DNA of 64,000 bases from Paeniglutamicibacter cryotolerans (GTDB lineage: Bacteria; Actinomycetota; Actinomycetes; Actinomycetales; Micrococcaceae): positions 1,054,001 through 1,118,000 of the forward strand of contig NZ_JACHVS010000001.1 of the NCBI RefSeq assembly GCF_014190875.1, written 5' to 3'. Under the pieces are notes generated by a model. That model was not told where the DNA came from, ran no database searches, and worked only from the letters and a program-made list of their open reading frames with translations. Shown here one piece after another: positions 53,836 to 61,008 of this stretch. Numbering within the stretch: the stretch's first letter is position 1; each line of letters starts with the position of its first letter. Position numbers and translations under genes: made by a program.

Positions 53836-55046
53836 ACACCACCCGCCCCGTGATCACAGCCGTCGCCGACAGCGACTCCTACCTGAAACTGGCCTGCGCC
53901 ACCCTGGAAAAACTGGGCCCGGGCTGGGACCGCAAGGTTCTGCTGGTGCGCAGCCCGCTGCTGCCCACCACCGAGCAGCTGGGTGCCGCCACACTGGGCA
54001 CCTTCATGGAGGGCATCAACCCGAGGATCCTGCCCATGGGCGCCCTGCCGCAGGCATTGCGGGGCTCAGGAGTCGTCTTCGCCGCCGCCACCGGTCCGAT
54101 AGTGCAGGAGCTCTTTGCCCGGATCACCGCCGCCGCACCCGACGGAATCCGACGCAGCGCCCTAGTCTCGGCGCTGCCCGGAGTCGCCCTGCCGGCCACC
54201 AAGAAGGCGATGCGCTTCCGCTCCCTGGCCGATGCCTTCATCACCCACAGCCATGCCGAGGCCGAGGCCTTCTCCGGACTATGTGCCGAGCTGGGAACGG
54301 CGGCCCCCGAACGGATCCTGGTCGCCAAGCTCCCGTTCCTGCATTCACGCGGCTTTCCGGCACCGGACCCGGCACCCGTCACCCGGCTGGTTTTCGCCGC
54401 GCAGGCCAAGGTCCCGTCGGCGAAGGCGGAACGCGAGCAGCTGCTGCTGGCACTGGACCGCGCCTCGCGGCTGAACCCGCAGGTGGAGGTGCTGGTCAAG
54501 GTACGTGCCTGGCCGGGCGAACCGCAGACCCACCTCGAGCCGTTCCCCTACGACGAACTGCACGACGAGCTGTTGCGCAGCGGTCGGCTCGCATCGTCCC
54601 GGGTGCGCTTCCGGGCCGGGTCGATGGCAGCGCTGTTGACCCCGGGCACGGCGCTGGCCACCGTCTCCTCCACCGCGGCGCTGGAATCGCTGGACCGGGG
54701 CCTGCGCACGCTGATCCTGTCCGACTTCGGCGTCAACCAGCGGCTGCTCAACGCGGTATTCGAGGGCAGCGGACTGCTGGGAACCCTCGACGACGCGGCG
54801 GCCATGGATTTCGGCCGGCCGGGGACCGCCTGGCTGCGGGAAAACTACTTCCATGCCGCCGACGTCGAGCCGGAGGCCGCGCTGCGCTCGCTTGCCCTGC
54901 GGGCCGCCGGTTCCGGATTCCGGATCGCCCCGGAGCGGATCGCCCTGGCCGCCGGCATCTCCCGCAAGGCAAAGGTCCGCACAGCGCTGCCGCGGCCCGC
55001 ACTGCGTGCGGTGCGCCGGTTGCGGCGGATGCTGCAGGGAATTTAG
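53832..55046 (+). CDS. DUF6716-like putative glycosyltransferase
   Basis: This 404-residue protein resembles a group annotated as putative glycosyltransferases (DUF6716) near sialic acid genes in actinobacteria; I recall this from annotation and cannot check it. Visible features are VVFAAATGPIVQEL, the GT-B-like LVKVRAWPGEPQTH near residue 225 and VSSTAALESLDRGLRTLILS near 275, a typical nucleotide-binding C-lobe. The C-terminus is basic (about 375-404), compatible with membrane association. Last gene of the operon. Confidence 0.65.
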   Translation: MNTTRPVITAVADSDSYLKLACATLEKLGPGWDRKVLLVRSPLLPTTEQLGAATLGTFMEGINPRILPMGALPQALRGSGVVFAAATGPIVQELFARITAAAPDGIRRSALVSALPGVALPATKKAMRFRSLADAFITHSHAEAEAFSGLCAELGTAAPERILVAKLPFLHSRGFPAPDPAPVTRLVFAAQAKVPSAKAEREQLLLALDRASRLNPQVEVLVKVRAWPGEPQTHLEPFPYDELHDELLRSGRLASSRVRFRAGSMAALLTPGTALATVSSTAALESLDRGLRTLILSDFGVNQRLLNAVFEGSGLLGTLDDAAAMDFGRPGTAWLRENYFHAADVEPEAALRSLALRAAGSGFRIAPERIALAAGISRKAKVRTALPRPALRAVRRLRRMLQGI

Positions 55047-55062
55047 GGGTCCGCCGGCCCCT

Positions 55063-55551
55063 TTACTTGCACTCCGGCAGGCCCGATGCGCGGGCGGCGT
55101 CCCCGACCCGTTGGAGCATGTCGCCCAGGGCGAGGGCCTCTTCCCGGCTGAGCACGTCAAAGAGCGTGGAGCGGACGAATCGCACGTGGTCGGGAGCGGC
55201 GGCGTCGATCATTTCCCGGCCCTGCTCCGTGAGGACCAGGTCGGCCCCGCGCCCGTCGCCCTCGATGGCACGGCGTCGGAGCAGCCCCTTGGCCTCCATC
55301 CGGCGCACCAGATGCGAGATACGGCTGCGTTCCCACCCCAGCTCCCGCGCCAGTTCCCCGGCGCGCAGGGCGCCACAGGTGTCTTGTGAAAGTGCGGCGA
55401 GCACCGAGTACTCTCCCGTGGACAAACTTGAATCACGCATCAATTGCCGGTCGAGCGCCGCGGGAAACTGCCATAGCAGCTGCCTGAAATGCAGCCAGGT
55501 CTCGCGTTCTTCGGAGTTCAGCCATTGCACAGCCTCGTTAGTGTCGCTCAT
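55063..55551 (-). CDS. MarR-family transcriptional regulator
   Basis: This 162-residue winged-helix regulator shows LSTGEYSVLAALSQ near residue 43, recognition region RAGELARELGWERSRISHLVRRMEAKGL and the wing RRRAIEGDGRGADLVLTEQG. Such proteins bind phenolic or oxidant signals and repress neighbouring genes. ATG at 55551 is chosen because GAGGGAAG stands four to six bases upstream; GTG at 55554 is too close. It is divergent from an FMN reductase, with a palindrome between them. Confidence 0.9.
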   Translation of the reverse strand: MSDTNEAVQWLNSEERETWLHFRQLLWQFPAALDRQLMRDSSLSTGEYSVLAALSQDTCGALRAGELARELGWERSRISHLVRRMEAKGLLRRRAIEGDGRGADLVLTEQGREMIDAAAPDHVRFVRSTLFDVLSREEALALGDMLQRVGDAARASGLPECK

Positions 55552-55570
55552 CACGCTTCCCTCAATGTTG

Positions 55571-55582
55571 TTGACACGTCAA
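55571..55582. promoter_or_regulatory. Candidate MarR operator
   Basis: TTGAC-AC-GTCAA, a 5-bp perfect inverted repeat, is placed 20 bases upstream of the marR-type gene, where autorepression would act. Confidence 0.5.
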
Positions 55583-55653
55583 TCATTACCGTCCATGCTT
55601 GAAGCAACAAGTATTTAGTTCGCCGCCCGAAACGGCCGGTGCCACCCAGTGAA

Positions 55654-55659
55654 TAGGAT
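55654..55659 (+). promoter_or_regulatory. Putative -10 element, FMN reductase gene
   Basis: TAGGAT with a seven-base spacer to the ATG at 55667; it could instead serve as a weak AGGA ribosome site. Confidence 0.35.
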
Positions 55660-55666
55660 TCAGCAC

Positions 55667-56242
55667 ATGACCAAGATTGCCATCGTCACCGGTTCCACCC
55701 GTCCGGGCCGCAACAATCTGGGCGTTGCCCAGTGGGTCCTGGACCAGGCCAACCTGCGCGGCGACGCCGACTACGAACTGGTCGACATCGCGGACTTCAA
55801 CCTGCCGGTGCTCGACGAGGCCTACCCGGCCGGCTACCAGAACTACCAGAACGACCACACCAAGGCCTTTGGCGCCAAGCTGGCCGAGTTCGACGGCTTC
55901 ATCTTCATCACCCCGGAATACAACCACTCAGTGGCCCCAGCCCTGGCCAACGCCCTGTCCTACGTGAACGTCGAATTGGCCAACAAGGCAGCGGGCATCG
56001 TCGGCTACGGTTCGGCCTTCGGCGCACGCGCCGTCGAGCACCTGCGCGGGATCCTCTCCGAACTGCAGGTGGCCCACGTGCAAAAGACCGGCATGTTCTC
56101 CCTGTTCACCGACTTCGAGAATTTTTCCGCCTTCAAGCCCACCGAATTCGGCGTGGCTTCGATGGCTCCGATGTTCGACCAGCTGGTTCCCTGGACCGTC
56201 GCCATGAAATCGGTCCGCGAAGCCGCCCTGGTTTCCGCCTAG
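55667..56242 (+). CDS. NADPH-dependent FMN reductase-type oxidoreductase
   Basis: This 191-residue flavodoxin-fold protein has the FMN phosphate loop VTGSTRPGRNN near residue 8, the isoalloxazine-contacting TPEYNHSVAPALANAL near 85 and VGYGSAFGARAVEHLR near 110. Such enzymes reduce quinones, azo dyes, nitro compounds or flavin with NAD(P)H. The divergent MarR gene suggests induction by a quinone or phenolic stress. ATG at 55667 is preferred over the in-frame 55649. Confidence 0.9.
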   Translation: MTKIAIVTGSTRPGRNNLGVAQWVLDQANLRGDADYELVDIADFNLPVLDEAYPAGYQNYQNDHTKAFGAKLAEFDGFIFITPEYNHSVAPALANALSYVNVELANKAAGIVGYGSAFGARAVEHLRGILSELQVAHVQKTGMFSLFTDFENFSAFKPTEFGVASMAPMFDQLVPWTVAMKSVREAALVSA

Positions 56243-56269
56243 CAGGTGAACATCGCGGGATCCGTTCCC

Positions 56270-56331
56270 GCGGCAATCGCCGTGCACAACAGTGGCTCCG
56301 TTCAACCACTGATGCGCATGGCGATTGCCGC
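56270..56331. terminator. Nested hairpin between convergent FMN reductase gene and fhs
   Basis: Outer arms GCGGCAATCGCC (56270-56281) and its exact complement (56320-56331) enclose an inner perfect CAGTGG (56290-56295) / CCACTG (56306-56311). No U-tract follows on either strand. It probably acts as a bidirectional terminator, or is a mobile intergenic repeat. Confidence 0.6.
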
Positions 56332-56345
56332 TTAATCGGGCCGTC

Positions 56346-58034
56346 CTAGAACAGCCCGACGGCACGCCCCTGCGCATCGACGTCCATGCGCATTGCGGCC
56401 GGAACCTTGGGCAGGCCCGGCATGGTCATCACCGATCCGGTCAGCGCCACGATGAATCCGGCGCCGGTCTTCGGGATCAGGTCGCGCACGTGCAGCGTGA
56501 AGCCCTCCGGGGCGCCGAGCAGGCTCGCATCGTCGGAGAACGAATACTGGGTCTTGGCCATGCAGACTGGCATCGCATCCCAGCCATTGGCATGGATCCG
56601 CTCCAACGCCCGGCGCGCCTCGGCCGAATACTCGACCCCGGCGCCACCGTAGATCTCGCGGACGATCGTCGAGATCTTTTCCTCCACGGACAGCTCCAGC
56701 TCGTACAGCGGGCTGAATTCCTGCGGCTTCTGGATCGCCGCAAGGACCTTCTGCGCCAGTTCGGCACCGCCGGCGGCGCCACGGCCCCAAACCTCGGCCA
56801 CCGCCGCCTCGACTCCCCGCTCTCGGCACCACTGAATCACCACATCGAGCTCGGCCTCGGTATCGGTGTGGAACCGGTTGACCGCCACCACGGGGGTGAC
56901 CCCGAACTTCCCGATGTTTGTCACGTGCCGCTCCAGGTTGCACAATCCGGCCCGCACCGCGTCTACGTTCTCGGCGCCGAGCGCGTCCTTGGCCACCCCG
57001 CCATGCATCTTCAGGGCCCGCACGGTGGCCACCACGACGGCTGCCGACGGTTCGAACCCGGCGAAGCGGGCCTTGATGTCCATGAACTTCTCGGCACCGA
57101 GGTCGGCTCCGAAGCCGGCCTCCGTGACCACGACATCGGCCAGTGCCCGGGCGGTGTTCGTCGCGATGACGGAGTTGCAGCCGTGGGCGATGTTGGCGAA
57201 GGGTCCGCCATGGATCAGCGCGGGCGTCCCGGCCATGGTCTGGACGAGGTTGGGCTTCAGCGCATCCTTGAGCAGCATGGTCATCGCGCCCTGCGCGTTC
57301 AGGTCGGCAACGGTGACCGGCTTCCGGTCGAAGGTATAGCCGACGGTAATGGCCGCAAGGCGCTCACGCAGGTCATCGATGCCCGTGGCGAGGCAGAAGA
57401 CGGCCATCACCTCGGAGGCGACGGTGATGTCGAACCCGGCCTCGCGCGGCATGCCCTCGGTGGGGCCGCCGAGCCCGATGACGATCTGGCGCAGCGCGCG
57501 GTCGTTCACGTCGAGCACGCGCCTGAAGGTGATCCGGCGCGGGTCGATGCCCAATTCGTTTCCGCGGTGCAGGTGGTTGTCGACCAGGGCCATGAGCAGG
57601 TTGTTGGCGCTGGTAATGGCATGGAAGTCGCCGGTGAAGTGCATGTTGATGTCTTCCATCGGCAGCACCTGCGAGTACCCGCCGCCGGTGGCCCCGCCCT
57701 TCATCCCGAAGATCGGCCCCAGCGAGGGTTCGCGCAGCGCAATCATGGTCCGGGTTCCGGTAGCGGACAGGGCGTCGCCCAGTCCGACGGTGACAGTCGA
57801 TTTACCCTCACCGGCGGGCGTCGGTGACATCGCACTGACCAGCACGACCCTTCCCCGGGCGGTTCCGGTGCGCTCGTGCAGCAGACCCGTGTCGATCTTC
57901 GCCTTGTAACGGCCGTACAGCTCCAGCGCCTCCTCTGGGATTCCAGCCCGCTGCGCAATATCCTGGATCGGTTCCAGGTTTGCCCGCGAGGCAATCCCCA
58001 GGTCACTCATGTCCATTTCAGACAACGCCGTCAT
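56346..58034 (-). CDS. fhs: Formate-tetrahydrofolate ligase
   Basis: This 562-residue enzyme makes 10-formyl-THF from formate, THF and ATP for one-carbon metabolism. Markers are the ATP-binding [15 protein letters not shown] near residue 72, [20 protein letters not shown] near 101 and [21 protein letters not shown] and VRALKMHGG further on. The length is normal and the frame intact. The leader has no clear riboswitch. Confidence 0.97.
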
Positions 58035-58108
58035 CGATTTGCCTACTTTCTTCCGGCCCTGGGCCGCTCACGAGCTTTGGATCCCGCTGGAACCTCTGTG
58101 ACTTCAAG

Positions 58109-58270
58109 TTACCAGCAGGCGGCCCGGGGAGGCAGCGGAGAGTCTCCTTTTAAGCGGCAAAGCCCGCCGGGGAAGCCGGCGGGCTTTGCGGTGCGGAATC
58201 CTGCGGTTTTCATCTCTACCTCACCGGTGGTTGTGATGGCCAGGGCCTGACGGATGCTGATATCTGTCAT
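58109..58270 (-). CDS. Doubtful fourth short ORF, overlapping the terminator
   Basis: ATG at 58270 overlaps the stop of the 39-residue ORF (TAATG), so it could be reached by coupled translation. The frame (53 residues, opening TDISIRQALAITTTGEVEM) runs through the downstream hairpin, which argues against it being a full gene. Confidence 0.2.
   Translation of the reverse strand: MTDISIRQALAITTTGEVEMKTAGFRTAKPAGFPGGLCRLKGDSPLPPRAACW
58157..58189 (-). terminator. Strong hairpin ending the short-ORF operon
   Basis: A perfect 14-bp stem (GCAAAGCCCGCCGG and complement) with a five-base loop lies 81 bases after the last good short ORF and 123 bases upstream of fhs. The minus-strand tail CGCTTAAAA is only weakly U-rich. 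Confidence 0.75.
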
Positions 58271-58389
58271 TAGCGCAGGCGGACAACCATTTCGATGGGC
58301 AGTTTCCTCTCATCGGCGATGCGGTGCGAGGGGTTGTATTCGGTGGCCAGCCACTTGGGCAGGCGCGGTTTGCGGCTTTCGGACTTCAT
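58270..58389 (-). CDS. 39-residue basic protein, short-ORF operon gene 3
   Basis: ATG at 58389 follows a near-perfect ribosome site (AGGGAGGTGA), five bases after the stop of the preceding ORF. The product begins KSESRKPRLPKWLA, continues with EYNPSHRIADERKL and ends MVVRLR; it is hydrophilic and basic. Third-position GC is high, as in real genes of this genome. No family is recognised, and it does not match the small ribosomal proteins I know. Confidence 0.6.
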   Translation of the reverse strand: MKSESRKPRLPKWLATEYNPSHRIADERKLPIEMVVRLR

Positions 58390-58394
58390 GCGAT

Positions 58395-58541
58395 TCACCT
58401 CCCTCCCTTCAGGTCATGGGTGCGGGTGGGATTCCGGGGTACCCTGGCGGCTGGGCGCGCGCGCAGGACCTCGGGTCCGGTGAAGATGAATTCAGCCGTG
58501 GGAAATCGGCTGGTCGCGATCTTTTTGATCGGGTTCGGCAT
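58395..58541 (-). CDS. 48-residue basic protein, short-ORF operon gene 2
   Basis: ATG at 58541 has AGAGGAA about seven bases upstream. The product opens PNPIKKIATSRFPTAEFIF, continues TGPEVLRARPAARVP and ends with HDLKGGR; it is basic with several Pro. The end of its frame encodes the ribosome site of gene 3. No family recognised. A longer frame to 58811 exists but would swallow gene 1, so the internal ATG is preferred. Confidence 0.5.
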   Translation of the reverse strand: MPNPIKKIATSRFPTAEFIFTGPEVLRARPAARVPRNPTRTHDLKGGR

Positions 58542-58621
58542 GGCGGGTGTTCCTCTGGATTGGCCTCGACGTGAAACGGAGGCCTCGGGAACGGGTATGC
58601 GTCCTGGGGCGAGAAAAATCC

Positions 58622-58726
58622 CTAGCAGGAAGCCGTTCCGGAGGCGGAGGTGATGGCACGGGTTCGGTAACCGGTGCTGCCGGAGACTGCACGCAGTCCC
58701 ATCAGGGCAATTGAATTCATCATCAT
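58622..58726 (-). CDS. 34-residue Ser/Thr-rich peptide, short-ORF operon gene 1
   Basis: Three ATG codons in a row (58726, 58723, 58720) follow an excellent ribosome site, AAAAGGAGGTGG. The peptide opens MMMNSIALMGLRAVSG and ends GTASC, with ten Ser/Thr in its last 20 residues and a single terminal Cys. This is the look of a modified-peptide precursor or a leader peptide, but no modification enzyme lies nearby. No family recognised. Confidence 0.5.
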   Translation of the reverse strand: MMMNSIALMGLRAVSGSTGYRTRAITSASGTASC

Positions 58727-58773
58727 TTCCACCTCCTTTTCGGAAGAACGTGCCGAGTGGGTCGGCGCCAATA

Positions 58774-58807
58774 GAATCCGCGGATTCCGAAGTCTCATTG
58801 AGACTTC
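58774..58807. promoter_or_regulatory. Two adjacent palindromes upstream of the short-ORF operon
   Basis: GAATCCGCGGATTC (58774-58787) is a 14-bp perfect palindrome. One base on, GAAGTCTCA and TGAGACTTC (58789-58807) form a 9-bp perfect inverted repeat around one base. They stand 48-81 bases before the first ATG, as operators would. Confidence 0.65.
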
Positions 58808-58885
58808 TCAATCACAAGTATCAGGCTATACGCGCAGGGCCCCCACGACAACGGGCTTCCTTAAAAGATTCCGTTTTTTTCCACG

Positions 58886-58917
58886 AGTTCGGCGTGTCCA
58901 ACGCAACACGCCGAACT
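58886..58917 (-). terminator. Hairpin at the end of the histidine phosphatase gene
   Basis: A perfect 11-bp stem AGTTCGGCGTG / CACGCCGAACT with a ten-base loop overlaps the last two bases of the stop codon. Downstream on the minus strand is A-rich rather than U-rich. Confidence 0.6.
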
Positions 58918-59509
58918 AAAGTCCCCAGGCTTCGACGGCGGGGGTATCCCGATCCCATCCGAGGCGGCAGACCTCCGCGGTTCCCAACAGGAAGTGCCGC
59001 CCCATGCCGGGTTCCATCCCCAACCAGCGTGCGGCGAGGATGCGGCTGAAATGTCCGTGGGAGAACACGATGGCATTCCCGCCCGCATCCAGTTGCGTGC
59101 ACACGCGGTCGACGAGCGCATCGGCCCGCGCAGACACCTGCGCCAGGGTCTCCCCGTTGGGCACGCCCTGGTCCCAGATCAGGTATCCCGGACGATCCCG
59201 GCGGATCTGCGCCGATTCGACGCCCTCGTAGTCGCCGTAGTCCCATTCCCGTGCCAGCGGCGTTCTTTCGGCGGCATCGAAACCCGCCAGTGCGGCAGTC
59301 TCCACGGCCCGCAGCAGCGGGCTGGTGAGCACCAGCCCGAATCCGATCCCGGCGAGCTGGGCCGCCCGCAGGACGTCCCCCGCCCGGTCGGCTTGCAGAC
59401 GCCCCTCCTGCGTCAGCTCAAGGTCCGTCAGCCCCGTGTAGCGGCCGCTGCGAGACCATTCGGTTTCGCCGTGGCGCACCACCCAAAGCCGCGGATGTTC
59501 CTGGGTCAT
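58916..59509 (-). CDS. Histidine phosphatase (phosphoglycerate-mutase-like)
   Basis: This 197-residue protein carries the phospho-His motif VVRHGETEWS near residue 10, the second Arg in LTSPLLRAVETA, GVPNGETLAQV and the second catalytic His in FSHGHFSRIL. It is likely a phosphatase of the GpmB/SixA group; the substrate is unknown. ATG overlaps the stop of the CCA-adding enzyme (ATGA), so it is co-translated with it. Confidence 0.9.
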   Translation of the reverse strand: MTQEHPRLWVVRHGETEWSRSGRYTGLTDLELTQEGRLQADRAGDVLRAAQLAGIGFGLVLTSPLLRAVETAALAGFDAAERTPLAREWDYGDYEGVESAQIRRDRPGYLIWDQGVPNGETLAQVSARADALVDRVCTQLDAGGNAIVFSHGHFSRILAARWLGMEPGMGRHFLLGTAEVCRLGWDRDTPAVEAWGL

Positions 59510-60969
59510 GGCGCTTCCACTCCCCTGACGGGCTCCGGCGCGGATTCGGGCTGCTCGGACCACCAGGCAAAGAGCTCGCGCTCGGCGGTATCCCGATCCA
59601 TCGGTCCGTTGTCCATGCGCAGTTCCAGCAGGTACCGGTAGGCGCGGCCGACCACCGGTCCGGGCTTGATGCCCAGCAGCTCCATGATCACAGCGCCGTC
59701 GAGGTCCGGGCGCACCGACTCCAGTTCCTCCTTGGCCATCAGCTCCTCGATCCGCTGCTCCAAGTCGTCGTAGGCGAAGGCCAGCCGTTCGGCCTTCTTG
59801 CGGTTCCTGGTGGTCACGTCCGAACGGGTCAACCGGTGCAGCCGCGGCAGCAGTTCCCCGGCATCGGTGACGTAACGGCGCACCGCCGAATCGCTCCAAC
59901 CGGCCTCGCCGTAGCCGTAGAACCGCATGTGCAGTTCTACCAGCCGGGCAACGGCCTTAATGCTGTCGTTGTCGAAGCGCAGTGCGCGCATCCGGGCTTT
60001 GACCAGTTTCGAGCCGACCACGTCGTGGTGGCGGAAGCTGACCGCGCCGGTGGGTTCGAAGCGTCGGGTCGCGGGCTTGCCCACGTCGTGCATCAACGCG
60101 GCAAAACGCAGCACGAAGTCAGGTCCGGGGACCGCACCGTCGGGGCCCGTTTCATGCCCCGCTGCCTGTTCAAGTACCTGCAACGAGTGCTGGTAGACGT
60201 CCTTGTGCCGGTGGTGCTCGTCGACCTCCAGCTTCAGCGCCGCTACCTCGGGCAGCACCAGCTCGGCGAGGCCGGTGTCCACCAGCAGGTCGATGCCGGT
60301 TCGAGGGTCGGCGCCGTTGATCAATTTGACGAGTTCGTCACGGACCCGCTCGGCGGAGATGATCGAGATGCGTTCGGCCATGTCGGTCATGGCCGTCCGT
60401 ACTTCGTCGGCGACCGTGATGCCCAGCTGCGAGGCGAAGCGTGCGGCACGCATCATGCGCAACGGGTCATCGGAGAAGGAGAGCGAGGGCGGGCCCGGGG
60501 TGCGCACGATGCGCGCCTCGAGGTCGATGGCCCCGTTGTAGGGGTCGACGAGCTCGAGTGACGGCAAGCGCAGGGCCATCGCGTTCATGGTGAAGTCACG
60601 CCGGTAGAGGTCGTCGGTGAGCGAGGTTCCGAAGGCCACCAGGGGCTTGCGCGAATCGGGGTCATAGGATTCGGCGCGGTAGGTAGTCACCTCGATGGTG
60701 TCCTTGCCCTTGCGCAAGGCGATGGTGCCGAAGGCGCGCCCCACCTCCCAGGTGGCGTCGGCCCAGCCGGCCACCACGGCCAGCGTCTGGTCCGGCGTGG
60801 CGTCGGTGGTGAAATCGAGGTCCGGAGACACCCTCCCGAGGAAGAGGTCGCGGACGGGACCGCCCACGAGGGACAGCTCGTGACCGGCATCGAGGAACAG
60901 GCGGCCAAGGTCCATGACCACGGATGGCAGAAGGGCCTGAAGTGAGGAGGAGTGCGGAAGCTGCAGCAT
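59506..60969 (-). CDS. cca: CCA-adding tRNA nucleotidyltransferase
   Basis: This 487-residue protein adds or repairs the 3' CCA of tRNA. The N-terminal nucleotidyltransferase has LVGGPVRDLFLG near residue 35, the metal pair in PDLDFTTDA and RRDFTMNAMAL, and the C-terminal half has an HD domain (VDEHHRHKDVYQHS, ALMHDVGKPATRR). Presence of the HD domain fits a CCA-adding enzyme of the actinobacterial type. It is divergent from the NUDIX/murJ genes, the usual order near the origin in this group. Confidence 0.95.
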   Translation of the reverse strand: MLQLPHSSSLQALLPSVVMDLGRLFLDAGHELSLVGGPVRDLFLGRVSPDLDFTTDATPDQTLAVVAGWADATWEVGRAFGTIALRKGKDTIEVTTYRAESYDPDSRKPLVAFGTSLTDDLYRRDFTMNAMALRLPSLELVDPYNGAIDLEARIVRTPGPPSLSFSDDPLRMMRAARFASQLGITVADEVRTAMTDMAERISIISAERVRDELVKLINGADPRTGIDLLVDTGLAELVLPEVAALKLEVDEHHRHKDVYQHSLQVLEQAAGHETGPDGAVPGPDFVLRFAALMHDVGKPATRRFEPTGAVSFRHHDVVGSKLVKARMRALRFDNDSIKAVARLVELHMRFYGYGEAGWSDSAVRRYVTDAGELLPRLHRLTRSDVTTRNRKKAERLAFAYDDLEQRIEELMAKEELESVRPDLDGAVIMELLGIKPGPVVGRAYRYLLELRMDNGPMDRDTAERELFAWWSEQPESAPEPVRGVEAP

Positions 60970-61008
60970 AGTTCTTTAAGCGTGCCAGATATTTTCCCGG
61001 AAGCCATG

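Follow-up and report, generated by a model that had tools for sequence, protein, structure and literature searches.

What do three very short open reading frames (ORFs) on the minus strand of the window, i.e. the whole 64,000 nucleotide stretch of Paeniglutamicibacter cryotolerans DNA that was analysed, encode, and how might their expression be arranged? A preliminary description had listed minus-strand ORFs of 34, 48 and 39 codons with ribosome sites, a strong hairpin terminator downstream and palindromes upstream, and all of these are present. ORF1 (58726-58622, minus strand, 34 codons) starts at AAAAGGAGGTGGAA-ATG with the Shine-Dalgarno (SD) sequence AAAAGGAGGTGG, ORF2 (58541-58395, minus strand, 48 codons) starts at GAGGAACACCCGCC-ATG and has the core AEFIFTGPEVLRAR, and the basic ORF3 (58389-58270, minus strand, 39 codons) starts at GGGAGGGAGGTGAATCGC-ATG, ends in ...LPIEMVVRLR and has a second in-frame start upstream, a GTG at 58398. 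The intrinsic-terminator-like hairpin (GCAAAGCCCGCCGG..CCGGCGGGCTTTGC) lies at 58189-58157 on the minus strand, and the part of our DNA query that covers it matches relatives at 93-98%. That description was incomplete, as it lacked the TANNNT promoter element, the start palindrome as such, the hairpin over the ORF2 ribosome site and a fourth frame, ORF4 (58213-58109, minus strand), in which an ATG after GAGGTAGAG opens the frame MKTAGFRTAKPAGFPGGLCRLK... that crosses the terminator hairpin with no stop before it. The upstream neighbour is a histidine phosphatase gene that ends at 58916, with a CCA/poly-A-polymerase-type gene behind it, and the downstream neighbour is the formate-tetrahydrofolate ligase gene (fhs, start 58034); Pfam backs all three adjacent genes (His_Phos_1, PolyA_pol/HD and FTHFS).

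On searching 59 genomes at the DNA level, the stretch of the unit was found to be kept in 15 of 15 genomes of the same genus (Paeniglutamicibacter, g1), the matches being concentrated at two places, the leader with the ORF1 start and the terminator. All three ORFs can be read in the 15 genomes, apart from ORF1 of G005, where a run of N intervenes, and they recur with conserved peptides, i.e. beyond chance; loci of named relatives include those of Paeniglutamicibacter antarcticus, P. sulfureus and Arthrobacter sp. MYb227. A profile of ORF3 matched 36 of 295 genomes of the family (15 in g1, 3 in g18, 17 in g23 and 1 weak match in g13), and going by this profile the unit is kept in two further genera, g18 and g23. 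The 30 loci referred to below are the fetched subset of the profile matches in g1, g18 and g23. One DNA match in g5 from the 59-genome search (L019) was set aside, being by eye a chance match to an unrelated stretch. Diverged forms of the unit were recognised by eye at the same place, downstream of the CCA gene, in further genera, for example L118 (g48), L116 and L139 (g5), L110 (g49), L115 (g47) and L129 and L131 (g11). The divergence between genera is strong; in L118 the ORF2 frame reads ..SELLISGPAVLTAR.. and that of ORF3 ..LEMIHRVR, followed by fhs. It may be noted that at L118 (G062, 591-803) the unit leads straight into fhs with neither ORF4 nor a terminator. Another such form is L135 (G065, g51, 235-408), where a 57-codon frame, which would be leaderless, begins with the leader GTGATTGG... 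at the point where transcription presumably starts; it is followed by ORF4, the terminator and fhs, ORF2 and ORF3 not being recognised. No unit was recognised in several of the 40 family stretches taken downstream of the CCA gene. The 26 best-scoring loci from the order's other families (1.5 kb downstream of the CCA gene) lack the palindrome pattern and hold a few short ORFs with an SD that form no recognisable unit, and the leader pattern at 1 mismatch occurs in 3 of 396 genomes of the order, all inside the family. The microprotein operon was seen in this family only.

To judge the coding status, dN/dS was obtained from Nei-Gojobori counts over all within-genus pairs; these pairs are not independent and the values are descriptive. 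The g1 set has 13 sequences without G000 and G005 (the latter omitted for its Ns) and 14 with G000, the g23 set comprises 12 of the 17 genomes with matches (those among the 30 loci) and the g18 set has 3 sequences. For ORF2 the values are 0.37 in g1 (13 sequences), 0.43 with G000 (14), 0.23 in g23 (12) and 0.67 in g18 (3), and for ORF3 0.24, 0.27, 0.14 and 0.37 in the same order. When the reading frame is shifted, the two shifted frames of ORF2 and ORF3 give pN/pS of 0.80-2.54 against 0.27-0.70 in frame. ORF2 and ORF3 are therefore under in-frame purifying selection at the sequence level and are real microproteins. Frameshifts and missing purifying selection in relatives, named beforehand as the outcome that would speak against the unit, were looked for, and the result favours ORF2 and ORF3; the proposal of an operon of tiny genes without a known family is backed by their conservation and selection. 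Pfam, NCBIfam and PHROGs, each given a part of the ORFs, returned no significant match for those scanned (best E 0.12 and 0.16), the best being Pfam Tugs at E 0.12, which falls short of the cut-off and concerns one diverged ORF3. Structure prediction from 4-row alignments reached a mean pLDDT of 58.9 and 61.1, values too low to warrant a fold search. A light search of the literature, covering titles and the beginnings of abstracts, brought up no paper on this unit.

ORF1 behaves differently across the genera, with dN/dS of 0.39 in g1 (0.44 with G000), 1.02 in g23 and 1.86 in g18. In the latter two genera it is without amino-acid constraint (pN/pS 1.01 for the 12 g23 sequences and 1.77 for g18, with only 3 sequences); it may matter as a protein in g1, and elsewhere there is no such constraint. 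Probably ORF1 is a translated leader ORF. Near its 3′ end, at 58644-58636, there is a CCTCCGGAA-like stretch complementary to its own ribosome site, which is largely kept in g1 and g23 even where the remaining ORF1 peptide varies.

Ahead of ORF1, a -10-like element (TAGCCT, 58828-58823, minus strand) stands 7 bases before the presumed transcript start, where the palindrome GTGATTGAGAAGTCTCAATGAGA (58815-58793, minus strand) would form the 5′ end of the transcript. The arrangement TANNNT-7 bases-GTGATTGRGANNTCTCAATGA is found in 30 of 30 loci. Searching the genome with the leader pattern (22 bases, up to 3 mismatches) gave one place, found on both strands, by which an operator shared by a regulon was rejected; the palindrome may still be a local operator. 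A relaxed promoter and palindrome pattern was met in other genomes of the family, in 12 of the 40 stretches that follow the CCA gene (8 of 27 genera); the opposite strand gave 0 of 40 and resampled stretches 2 of 800. Since this pattern was written after reading the loci, the 12 of 40 is partly circular and the controls show chance rarity only. Covariation of the leader palindrome within g1, g18 and g23 is weak, as 202 of 500 shuffles reach its count of both-side changes (alignment A7, 13 of 16 distinct leader segments). A leaderless ORF of 6 codons at the transcript start (GTG ATT GRG ANN TCT CAA TGA) was also considered; it is open in the 30 loci of g1, g18 and g23, and by eye it is not kept as such in other genera. 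In g1, g18 and g23 it is the coding positions that change, the other bases being invariant, so that a palindrome or hairpin fits better than this ORF. The palindrome could be an operator or a 5′-terminal RNA hairpin.

Between ORF1 and ORF2, the region over the ORF2 ribosome site (SD2; 58592-58549, minus strand) has GUUCC and GGAAC arms that are kept in relatives. In the comparison of this hairpin 93.5% of the cells are paired and 3 pairs have changes on both sides; 30 of 500 shuffles reach 3 such pairs and none of 500 reaches the 5 cells, whereas further pair types are no more numerous than in the shuffles, and with a slide of +1 the covariation score rises slightly (from 0.091 to 0.100). The alignment used (A6) holds 17 segments chosen out of 25 distinct ones, the P. 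cryotolerans window's own being left out, and it has flaws: through misalignment the two g18 rows consist mostly of gaps, and a g23 row is shifted by one position. In the fold predicted for P. cryotolerans itself, the partner of the SD2 site lies further upstream. Across the loci, SD2 is paired in the predicted fold in 27 of the 28 where the motif was located, and the ORF3 site (SD3) in 30 of 30; with the upstream part resampled, pairing is still obtained in 839 of 1120 cases for SD2 and 1005 of 1200 for SD3, and pairing of the SD as such is therefore close to expectation. The fold z-scores in P. cryotolerans are -0.2 (SD2) and 0.4 (SD3). The comparison speaks more for the SD2 hairpin than the predicted folds do, and control of ORF2 by the hairpin is moderately supported. 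The stop of ORF1 lies 14-29 bases before the SD2 arm, and a terminating ribosome may therefore not open the hairpin. In g23 loci (e.g. L047) a T run comes after the SD2 hairpin, and a transcription terminator between ORF1 and ORF2 is possible there. As for ORF3, its start lies close to the end of ORF2 in all 30 loci, at most 8 bases ahead of it and at most 5 bases beyond it, and its ribosome site is formed by the last codons of ORF2. From this geometry it follows that ORF2 and ORF3 would be translationally coupled.

At the 3′ end of the unit, all 30 loci have an ORF4 frame that stays open across the hairpin and meets no stop ahead of it. The start codon is ATG in 29 of these loci and GTG in G002, and P. 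cryotolerans has an additional overlapping UAAUG start at 58270. A stricter program that requires an SD finds ORF4 in 29 of 30 loci against 333 of 6000 (5.6%) resampled cases, the resampling being first-order and of the 75 bases preceding. Many loci also have a second start, lacking an SD, whose different frame enters the hairpin and ends directly behind it. Outside g1, g18 and g23, 20 loci were given to the program, the hairpin was found in 16 and a crossing ORF at 10, of which L103 is to be discarded since its hairpin lies in the next gene. L100, L101, L105, L109, L110, L115 and L139 share with g1 the ..GL.. reading of the 3′ arm; in L113 and L129 a different frame crosses the hairpin, the L129 start being inside ORF3, and L135 has by eye a g1-like ORF4. 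No crossing ORF was found at 6 of the 16 hairpins (L114, L116, L119, L131, L138 and L106; in L116 the hairpin picked by the program is not the terminator), and the g48 unit has no ORF4. The ORF4 peptide is without constraint in g1 (dN/dS 1.35, or 1.28 with G000), and in g23 (0.51) and g18 (0.43) the hairpin weighs on the count. On the basis of sequence and precedent, a stop-less mRNA end is predicted at ORF4.

The alternative that survives best concerns this end alone, namely that the ORF4 start precedes the terminator by descent, that termination is inefficient or occurs further downstream, and that the mRNA carries a real stop. In its favour, the units examined are all related by descent, g1 has a weak U-tract behind the hairpin, and of the 18 strong hairpins in the window 3 have an SD and an open start, one being that of ORF4, so the combination arises by chance at 2 of the 17 others. 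Against this, the frame is retained while the N-terminal residues and the hairpin sequence change, the distance from start to hairpin is 26 or 29 bases, the resampling yields the low figure given above and the stop positions beyond the hairpin vary. We consider a real stop on the mRNA rather unlikely. The P. cryotolerans genome has a tmRNA (155 bits) and three release-factor-domain ORFs (loci L166 and L168-L170). One of these, a short open frame of 142 aa, is perhaps ArfB-like, and a further rescue factor is therefore not obviously needed.

The position of fhs raises another explanation, in which the short ORFs and the terminator form a leader that controls read-through into fhs. In the window, in the 3 g18 loci and in g51 this gene comes next downstream in the same orientation, and in g48 it comes after the unit without an intervening terminator. 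An attenuator of fhs would have this gene co-directional and directly downstream consistently, while we found it so in 4 of 30 loci; in the other 26 it lies about 1.1-1.3 kb further on (6 g1 loci) or is absent from the flank of about 1.4 kb that was examined (20 loci), and in G007 the stretch after the terminator looked by eye like a convergent gene. As ORF2 and ORF3 are moreover selected as proteins, an fhs attenuator is very unlikely. Equally improbable is a conserved regulatory RNA, a small RNA or one of riboswitch type, that contains the ORFs only incidentally. The 5′ palindrome, the both-side changes of the SD2 hairpin and the conserved terminator would suit it, yet selection on ORF2 and ORF3 acts in frame, with shifted-frame controls near or above 1, the ribosome sites before the ORFs are retained, and Rfam gave nothing above gathering scores for the window positions 55000-61000 and 7 loci (three weak matches). 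Least credible of all is a peptide-product cluster (bacteriocin, modified peptide or small toxin operon), which the several short and partly basic ORFs under one promoter and their strong divergence between genera would fit, given that neither a modification enzyme nor a transporter is found among the three adjacent genes, that the unit is present in every same-genus genome searched, and that one relative's ORF3 had no plasmid match and one relative's ORF2 no phage match. The earlier suggestion that ORF1 is a modified-peptide precursor is not supported, its C-terminal Cys being present in 14 of 14 readable g1 peptides and replaced by Ser, Phe, Ile or Arg in g18 and g23, with no modification enzymes adjoining.

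We return to the reading that we somewhat favour, a microprotein operon that is autonomous and translationally coupled and whose 3′ end is predicted to be stop-less, like those of brfA and arfA. Transcription would start at the palindrome and ORF1 would be translated as a leader. The SD2 hairpin would limit translation of ORF2 until ribosomes or another signal open it, and ORF3 would be translated through its coupling to ORF2. As the transcript is expected to end within ORF4, ribosomes translating this frame would arrive at a stop-less 3′ end and call in trans-translation, by which mRNA and output would be held down until rescue capacity runs short. Our preferred guess for the role of ORF2 and ORF3 is in translation stress. 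In its full form, with the stop-less ORF4 as a sensor of trans-translation and with ORF2 and ORF3 freed at rescue overload to act on the ribosome, this proposal is speculative and on balance unlikely. The two protein families of ORF2 and ORF3 are described in none of the libraries searched; these proteins fall below the usual gene-length cut-offs, and close relatives keep them at a single chromosomal position. Confirmation of the stop-less ORF4 would mean that a programmed stop-less mRNA end exists apart from the protein it controls, and would offer a handle on how actinobacteria sense ribosome rescue.

Parts of the unit resemble known systems. As in translationally coupled small-protein operons, the start of ORF3 is near the end of ORF2 and its ribosome site lies in the last codons of ORF2, except that ORF2 and ORF3 match no known family in the libraries searched. 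Actinobacteria also have leader-ORF attenuators, of the whiB7 type and with cysteine-responsive leader ORFs. With these the unit shares a short first ORF followed by a hairpin over the next ribosome site, and in g23 the T run behind this hairpin is terminator-like; it differs in that the controlled genes are microproteins, ORF1 has no run of Cys codons and the unit has its own terminator. A further likeness is to the rescue factors of other bacteria. In published accounts, brfA of B. subtilis has a terminator inside its coding frame and is repressed by trans-translation (PMC6881298), and arfA of E. coli gives a stop-less mRNA (PMC6881298, PMC10107115). ORF4 likewise contains an intrinsic terminator in its coding frame without a prior stop, as read from the sequence of all 30 loci, and its mRNA is expected to lack a stop codon and so to be open to trans-translation. 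In brfA and arfA the stop-less ORF is itself the rescue factor, whereas here it is a separate fourth ORF, short, with a variable N-terminal part and unconstrained in g1, and the selected proteins ORF2 and ORF3 are encoded upstream of it. The ORF2 and ORF3 peptides scanned against Pfam and NCBIfam had no significant match to a known rescue factor. If the stress proposal is true, actinobacteria would have arrived independently, with unrelated proteins, at a logic like that of ArfA and BrfA, here with sensor and effectors as separate genes on one mRNA.
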